Part shown: positions 5,351 to 6,416 of the stretch, one piece after another
Position numbering within the stretch: position 1 is the stretch's first letter
Layout of the letters: every line of letters begins with the position of its first letter
NCBI GenBank assembly: GCA_013150955.1
Contig: JAADJD010000027.1
Coordinates: 58,601-122,600 of the forward strand
DNA length: 64,000 nucleotides
Source: Calditrichota bacterium
GTDB taxonomy: Bacteria; Calditrichota; Calditrichia; RBG-13-44-9; J042
Reading direction: 5' to 3'
The notes under the pieces: model-generated
Told to the model about the DNA's origin: nothing
Seen by the model: only the letters and a program-made list of their open reading frames with translations
Database searches by the model: none
Position numbers and translations under genes: made by a program

Positions 5351-6340
5351 ATCATCGGGACGTTCTCACCAACGGATGGGAGTAAATAAAAAAAGGGAGC
5401 TTTTTTGGCTACCCTTTGTTCAGCGGGGCTCAGGAGACTCGAGACTTGCGCCCTTCCCGACGGTGTCGGGACGTTCTGACCAACGGAAGGGGTTGGGGAA
5501 AAAGAAAAGGGGAACGTTTGAAGCTCCCCTTTGGTTCAGCGGGGCCGACGAGACTCGGGGCCTGCGACCTTCCCGACGGTGTCGGGACGTTCTGACCAAC
5601 TGAAGGGGTTGGGAAAAAGAAAGGGGAGCGTTTTGGGCTCCCCTTAGTTCAGCGGGGCCGACGAGACTCTGGGCTTGCGCCCTTCCCGACGATGTCGGGA
5701 CGTTCTGACCAACTGAAGGGGTTGGGAAAAAGAAAGGGGAGCGTTTTGGGCTCCCCTTGGTTCAGCGGGGTCGAGTAGACTCGAGGCTTGCGCCCTTCCC
5801 GACGTTGTCGGGACGTTCTGACCAACGGAAGGGGTTGGGAAAAAGAAAGGGAAGCGTTTTGGGCTCCCCTTTGGATCCGCGGGGCCGACGAGACTCGGCG
5901 TCTGCGACCTTCCCGACGATGTCGGGACGTTCTGACCAACGGAAGGGGTTGGGAAAAAGAAAGGGGAGCGTTTTGGGCTCCCCTTTGTTCAGCGGTGCTC
6001 AGGAGACTCGAGGCTTGCGCCCTTCCCGACGATGTCGGGACGTTCTCACCAACGGAAGGGGTTGGAGGAAAAAGAAAAGGGGAGCGTTTTGAGCTCCCCC
6101 TTTGTTCAGCGGTGCTCAGGAGACTCGAACTCGCGACCTTCCCGACGGTGTCGGGACGTTCTAACCAACGGAAGGGATTGGGGAAAAAGAAAAGGGGAGC
6201 GGTTTTGAGCTCCCCTTTGGATCTGCGGGGCCGACGAGACTCTGGGCTTGCGCCCTTCCCGACGATGTCGGGACGTTCTGACCAACTGAAGGGATTGGGG
6301 AAAAAGAAAAGGGGAGCTTTTTTGAGCTCCCCTTTGGATC
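5351..6340 (-). repeat. tandem array of tRNA-Asp-derived pseudo-tRNA/terminator units
   Basis: About eight direct repeats of roughly 118-121 bp plus one partial at the left end (from 5351), running up to the intact tRNA-Asp gene. Read on the minus strand, each unit holds a D-arm-like stretch (AGTTGGTCAGAACG), a 17-base hairpin TCCCGACANCGTCGGGA where the anticodon arm should be, and the 3' half of tRNA-Asp including GTCTCGTCGGCCCCGC in most copies. A GC-rich terminator hairpin and T-run follow. The 5' acceptor strand is missing in every copy, so none could be a working tRNA. Copies near 6000 and 6110 have a variant 3' arm. The copy near 6120-6180 keeps an intact T-loop and is closest to the true gene. 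Open frames across the array are accidental. Confidence 0.85.
6301..6335 (-). terminator. Rho-independent terminator of tRNA-Asp
   Basis: An 11-bp stem (AAAGGGGAGCT at 6308-6318 with AGCTCCCCTTT at 6325-6335), followed on the minus strand by TTTTCTTTTTCCCC. It lies just 3' of the tRNA. Near-copies of this hairpin recur in every unit of the adjoining array. Confidence 0.85.
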
Positions 6341-6342
6341 CG

Positions 6343-6416
6343 CGGGGCCGACGAGACTCGAACTCGCGACCTCCGGCGTGACAGGCCGGCGTTCTAACCA
6401 ACTGAACTACGACCCC
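6343..6416 (-). tRNA. tRNA-Asp (anticodon GTC)
   Basis: A 74-base tRNA with all arms. The acceptor is GGGGTCG pairing with CGGCCCC, with discriminator G. The D arm contains AGTTGGTTAGAA. The anticodon stem is CCGGC/GCCGG with loop CTGTCAC, giving anticodon GTC (Asp). The T arm is GCGAG-TTCGAGT-CTCGT. The 3' CCA is not encoded. The terminator follows directly, and a degenerate tandem array of sequences derived from this gene continues downstream. Confidence 0.95.

Follow-up and report, generated by a model that had tools for sequence, protein, structure and literature searches.

The tandem array of pseudo-tRNAs that adjoins the intact tRNA-Asp gene of the window (the whole 64,000-nucleotide stretch analysed here, from a Calditrichota bacterium) is, judging from sequence comparison, probably the tandem-amplified and nuclease-less remnant of a selfish element dedicated to a single tRNA gene. 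Elsewhere in this genome, and in other phyla, small GIY-YIG nuclease genes lie inside similar arrays beside tRNA genes, and a nuclease gene would once have stood at the window's tRNA-Asp as well.

Anatomy of the tRNA-Asp array

Tandem Repeats Finder places the repeat at 5355-6360, with a period of 113, 8.8 copies and 87% matches, and an alignment split at the D-arm resolves it into eight full units of 111–117 bp plus a truncated ninth, with a mean pairwise identity of 0.87. The tandem array announced by the original prediction is thus real; its count of about eight units holds for the full ones, and its unit length of about 119 bp gives way to a spacing of 113–117. As had also been stated, all units run in the same direction; it is that of the intact tRNA-Asp(GTC), on the minus strand, and they lie downstream of it. 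The features are the following:

6472-6500, minus strand: predicted promoter-like site upstream of the intact tRNA (consensus scan, 9 of 12 positions)
6342-6416, minus strand: intact tRNA-Asp(GTC), single (ARAGORN; Rfam RF00005, 71.7 bits)
6308-6335, minus strand: terminator-like hairpin of the intact tRNA (terminator scan)
6169-6285, minus strand: unit 1, with D-arm remnant, hairpin 6257-6273 replacing the anticodon arm, tRNA 3' half and terminator 6191-6218
6053-6168, minus strand: unit 2, hairpin 6140-6156, terminator 6075-6103
5940-6052, minus strand: unit 3, hairpin 6024-6040, terminator 5960-5986
5826-5939, minus strand: unit 4, hairpin 5911-5927, terminator 5846-5872
5713-5825, minus strand: unit 5, hairpin 5797-5813, terminator 5734-5758
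5600-5712, minus strand: unit 6, hairpin 5684-5700, terminator 5621-5645
5484-5599, minus strand: unit 7, hairpin 5571-5587, terminator 5506-5532
5373-5483, minus strand: unit 8, hairpin 5455-5471, degenerate terminator
5355-5372, minus strand: truncated ninth unit, D-arm remnant and left hairpin half only (read from the sequence)

The diagnostic feature of the units is absent from the original prediction, which had them keep the D-arm and the 3' half of the tRNA. Each of the eight full units has a perfect hairpin, TCCCGAC-NNN-GTCGGGA, in place of the anticodon arm (CCGGCCTGTCACGCCGG), with eight matches in the window versus 0.19 expected, and the D-arm remnant consists of its 3' side only. 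A terminator-like hairpin, predicted for every unit, was called in seven of the eight and behind the intact tRNA-Asp (nine sites called in the array region versus 3.4 expected), unit 8 keeping a weaker, degenerate version. The view that the units cannot be tRNAs agrees with cmscan, which at the Rfam gathering threshold gave no tRNA match to any unit and detected the intact tRNA-Asp gene alone. Likewise, the hairpins are kept while the T-loop drifts: the D-arm remnant and new hairpin vary in 2 of 29 columns, the V/T-arm part in 14 of 31 (Fisher p = 0.001).

The junction common to all units suggests that one founder was amplified into the array, and the proposal that a dead tRNA copy expanded along with its terminator is correct here. 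The units differ from one another, and a search beyond the locus turned up similar arrays elsewhere in the genome and in other assemblies; faulty assembly is therefore an unlikely source. A plainer account would dispense with any mobile element, the 3' part of the tRNA and its terminator having been duplicated by chance and multiplied by slippage or unequal crossing-over during neutral decay. The window array lacks a nuclease and promoters, and its homogeneous units share a single junction, all as this account would have it; the process is also the same as the final step of the explanation we favour. However, further tRNAs, and further phyla, show the same arm replaced by the same hairpin, and GIY-YIG genes are associated with such copies far more often than chance would allow (see below), so that we consider neutral decay by itself unlikely.

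It had been proposed, alternatively, that repetition of a tRNA-terminator unit had created a family of small structured RNAs. The units do have a terminator, and their predicted fold is stable (z = -3.35), although the two hairpins alone predict such stability. A consensus scan of 5200-6560 found no promoter-like site inside the array, the sole site lying upstream of the intact tRNA, and every unit stands behind a terminator. In addition, the arrays in the window's genome are truncated differently from locus to locus, upstream or downstream. The analysis gave this proposal no support, and we regard it as very unlikely.

Pseudo-tRNA copies and GIY-YIG genes at other tRNA loci

By direct inspection, at least eight of the approximately 44 tRNA genes in the window's genome have adjoining pseudo-tRNA copies: Asp, Glu(CTC), Glu(TTC), Pro(TGG), Pro(CGG), Asn, Ser and Leu. 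Both downstream copies, which are 3' parts, and upstream copies, which are 5' parts with the leader, occur. In class I tRNAs the disrupted arm is mostly the anticodon arm; in the Ser and Leu copies a CCCTGCCTG..CAGGCAGGG hairpin disrupts the T-loop. Unlike the window's genome, another genome of the same genus (G001) has its tRNA-Asp and tRNA-Asn without arrays, which therefore are variable within the genus.

A PF01541 search of the window's genome gave five matches, namely a frame of about 634 codons, expected from its size to be UvrC, and four small genes, all four of them inside pseudo-tRNA arrays. Behind tRNA-Glu(TTC) and tRNA-Pro(CGG), the small GIY-YIG gene has its stop codon inside the next pseudo-tRNA or immediately ahead of it. 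The same search found no Asp-type nuclease in the genome and no nuclease gene or remnant in the window array. Across the class the distribution is likewise patchy, with GIY-YIG matches in 33 of 40 genomes (0–10 each).

The complete element, as seen in relatives and in other phyla, has the following order: intact tRNA, GIY-YIG gene of 80–115 aa with its stop codon abutting the pseudo-tRNA, and hairpin-disrupted tRNA 3' part, all in the same orientation. At locus L146 of a relative, for example, an intact tRNA-Asn is followed by a terminator, the GIY-YIG gene, a pseudo-tRNA-Asn whose anticodon arm holds ATCCCG..CGGGAT, and the same terminator again. Further families of the class share this Asn arrangement, as does a Bacteroidetes bacterium (G065). 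Three tRNA-Asp loci (L154, L161 and L168) combine a nuclease gene with the hairpin position of the window. Some nuclease copies are truncated or stop-ridden. Mirror-image elements were seen at L159, L164 and L132; there the nuclease gene lies on the upstream side of the intact tRNA and is flanked or followed by pseudo-tRNAs that are 5' parts and carry the same hairpin.

All four proteins tried scored above the PF01541 cut-off, and the nuclease alignment has conserved Tyr, Gly, Arg and Glu columns. PF01541 was the sole domain found in these 80–115 aa proteins, with no separate DNA-binding domain. The best profile matches among solved structures were UPF0213 and SLX1 (1zg2, 1ywl, 4xlg).

Two contigs of the window's genome (C24 and C50; loci L067 and L070) start in the same tRNA-Glu pseudo-tRNA/GIY-YIG repeat, and other GIY-YIG loci likewise lie at contig ends. 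The elements seem to break assemblies, and their copy numbers are probably underestimated.

Distribution, isotype specificity and hairpins

We assembled a tRNA-type set of 77 distinct GIY-YIG domains (profile E<1e-15). In 46 of them, an intact tRNA lies on the same strand at a distance of less than 300 bp upstream, and 60 have a recognisable tRNA or pseudo-tRNA neighbour; on the opposite strand, no tRNA lies within 300 bp of any of the 77. By our estimate (45 tRNAs in 4 Mb), about 0.1 of the 77 would be expected by chance, a comparison that carries mild biases, as some members were gathered by way of the hairpin pattern and tRNA-adjacent members were the basis of the profile. The same two counts for 60 lower-scoring GIY-YIG domains, which lie mostly away from tRNAs, were 9 and 15, and the tRNA-adjacent ones include truncated copies.

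When 84,980 species genomes were scanned for the Asp-type hairpin with flanking tRNA letters, 26 stretches matched, most of them adjoining intact tRNAs. The hosts are Bacteroidota, Nitrospirota, Zixibacteria, Neomarinimicrobiota, Patescibacteria and one Deferribacteres-labelled genome. Two of the 26, in Promicromonospora (L162) and Eggerthellaceae (L173), have no tRNA nearby and were set aside as probably chance matches. Nor did a viral source come to light: the Asp hairpin pattern had no match in viral contigs, and phage records held just weak GIY-YIG relatives. In plasmids, no GIY-YIG relatives were found.

The nuclease tree follows tRNA isotype and not host. With 11 isotype labels it needs 14 changes (the minimum being 10) versus a mean of 40.5 after shuffling, with none of 200 shuffles as low, and host labels need 34; since 38 of 70 forks in the tree of this short protein are open and the deep ones poorly resolved, the clustering alone is claimed. 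Nucleases for Asn, Thr and Cys from different families form one group each (Cys with a support of 75 only). Judging from gene position, the target of each nuclease would be the adjoining tRNA isotype. The tRNA-associated nuclease genes are under purifying selection, with pN of 0.13–0.36 versus pS of 0.67–0.99 in 14 of 15 pairs; the close pair L264/L272 gave no sign of constraint.

Hairpin position tracks isotype too and, within Asp, the nuclease group, the Asp hairpin lying in the T-arm in the f5/f6 group and in the anticodon arm in Nitrospirota and Zixibacteria. A G+C-rich inverted repeat follows the stop codon in 31 of 72 tRNA-type genes versus 1.9 expected, and in 6 of 54 other GIY-YIG genes. 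Of 44 distinct hairpins, 35 extend the six fixed pairs by a complementary seventh, which may be C-G or T-A; this indicates that palindromy itself, and not a fixed sequence, is maintained or created.

Palindromes of this kind could in principle be independent REP-like mini-elements, moved by a Y1/RAYT-type transposase and landing in dispensable tRNA copies. Two Y1 transposase genes are present in the window's genome, hairpins of several sequences are found in D-, anticodon and T-arms, and similar palindromes are dispersed in one other genome (G017). Against such an origin, 20 of the 30 TCCCGA..TCGGGA sites in the window's genome lie beside tRNA genes, and the 10 elsewhere are at about chance level, on which ground we rejected a dispersed-repeat source of the hairpin there. 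The position of the hairpin is fixed per isotype, and the nuclease association would be left unaccounted for. We find mini-elements very unlikely to explain the array.

Unlike the window's genome, the G017 chromosome carries 45 dispersed TCCCGA..TCGGGA sites (control 3), often with TTTT/AAAA loops, which are possibly terminators or a dispersed palindrome family. In another genome (G009), pseudo-tRNAs at L017 and L110 have hairpins in the D-, anticodon and T-arms simultaneously.

Possible life cycle and relation to known systems

From anatomy, distribution, isotype specificity and selection we infer a cycle of cleavage and homing. The complete element is a free-standing GIY-YIG gene between an intact tRNA and a truncated copy of the same tRNA, the G+C-rich hairpin disrupting the presumed target arm (anticodon or T-arm) in the displaced copy. 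The nuclease would first break an uninvaded tRNA gene. Repair from a carrier would then bring in the nuclease gene together with a partial duplication of the tRNA, leaving one tRNA functional, and the disrupted copy could no longer be used as a target. Once targets are exhausted the nuclease gene would decay, and homologous recombination among the pseudo-tRNA and terminator repeats may finally expand the remnant, as is proposed for the window array.

One finding sits uneasily with this cycle. Over the presumed target arm, the intact tRNA is identical in carriers and non-carriers; the presumed target site is altered by the hairpin in the displaced copy, and the intact copy of the carrier is unchanged. 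Immunity through an altered tRNA sequence was thus discarded. If the nuclease cuts this arm and the carrier's intact tRNA is unaltered, the carrier should suffer. Its tRNA could be spared by decoy binding to the hairpin copies, by tight control of expression or by a nuclease that recognises structure instead of sequence. In anatomy, the element resembles a homing endonuclease element; we withhold the status of a proven one because of the unaltered carrier tRNA, the lack of a nuclease remnant in the window array and the lack of a separate DNA-binding domain. Such a module is usual in intron-encoded GIY-YIG members such as I-TevI, and is not strictly required.

The array might instead be kept as a decoy, its hairpin copies serving as uncuttable binding sites that shield the essential tRNA from tRNA-targeting GIY-YIG nucleases. 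This would account for the survival of carriers with an unaltered intact tRNA, and the hairpin with its D-arm flank is the least variable portion of the units. Nevertheless, recombination between units could likewise give low variation, and the window's genome has no Asp-type nuclease to be shielded from; a decoy array is, in our judgement, distinctly unlikely. The wider proposition that pan-bacterial mobile elements, each with a single-domain SLX1-like GIY-YIG nuclease dedicated to one tRNA isotype, invade essential tRNA genes and leave palindrome-marked copies whose nuclease-less arrays act as decoys for the essential tRNA is put forward tentatively, as possible but rather doubtful.

Several known systems share parts of the anatomy of the proposed remnant and its complete relatives. 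Genomic islands that integrate at tRNAs create a second copy of the tRNA 3' end and leave one tRNA functional, and integrases usually use tRNA 3' ends, which are duplicated on integration. Attachment-site scars of a tRNA-targeting integrase element would fit this much. However, there is no integrase among the eight neighbouring genes tested, and we rejected the candidate on this ground. The terminators are duplicated as well, the units are in tandem, upstream copies are 5' parts, and an integrase does not predict the replacement of one arm by a hairpin, all of which makes such scars extremely improbable. Homing endonucleases in group I introns of bacterial tRNA genes have their target near the anticodon, and the tRNA stays functional through splicing; here, duplication keeps the tRNA and no intron is present, the ARAGORN calls at these loci being ordinary uninterrupted tRNAs. 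For UPF0213 and SLX1 nucleases, the best structural profile matches, no mobility or tie to tRNA genes is known. Lower-scoring GIY-YIG genes in the genomes that carry the tRNA-type ones lie mostly away from tRNAs.

The nearest described system is SegB of phages T4/T6, likewise a small GIY-YIG gene that stands free next to tRNAs. In phages, segB often co-localises with tRNAs of many isotypes (PMC13096335; PMC2988022), and breaks by SegB, a GIY-YIG nuclease, followed by recombination lead to tandem amplification of tRNA segments (PMC13096335). In contrast to the phage-borne SegB, the present genes sit on the chromosomes of many bacterial phyla and group according to tRNA isotype, and their proteins are single-domain. 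Here a hairpin-disrupted tRNA copy follows the gene; none is reported for SegB in the literature consulted. The original prediction that no system of this form had been described holds in the literature searched, save for this phage analogue: among those sources, which included few subscription journals, we found no description of bacterial chromosomal, tRNA-specific GIY-YIG elements with hairpin-marked pseudo-tRNAs.

If the proposed element is real, tRNA genes of many bacterial phyla would be routinely parasitised by tiny nuclease genes, which would explain pseudo-tRNA arrays in bacterial chromosomes and probably some assembly breaks at tRNAs, as contigs often end inside these repeats. It would also provide a natural collection of compact nucleases ordered by the tRNA that they target, and raises the question of how a carrier spares its own unaltered and essential tRNA gene.

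A second repeat occurs close to the array. An element of about 165 bp with 47-nt inverted arms adjoins it at window positions 5091-5253 and has at least 81 genomic matches, a count based on the scoring of 40 among 754 first-look candidates; it is probably a member of a large MITE-like family. Further fragments were noted by eye in the Tandem Repeats Finder output at 17623-17943 and 27544-27649. At L069, on contig C47 of the same genome, a relative of this repeat splits one of the pseudo-tRNA-Ser copies, and TTTAA appears to be duplicated there.
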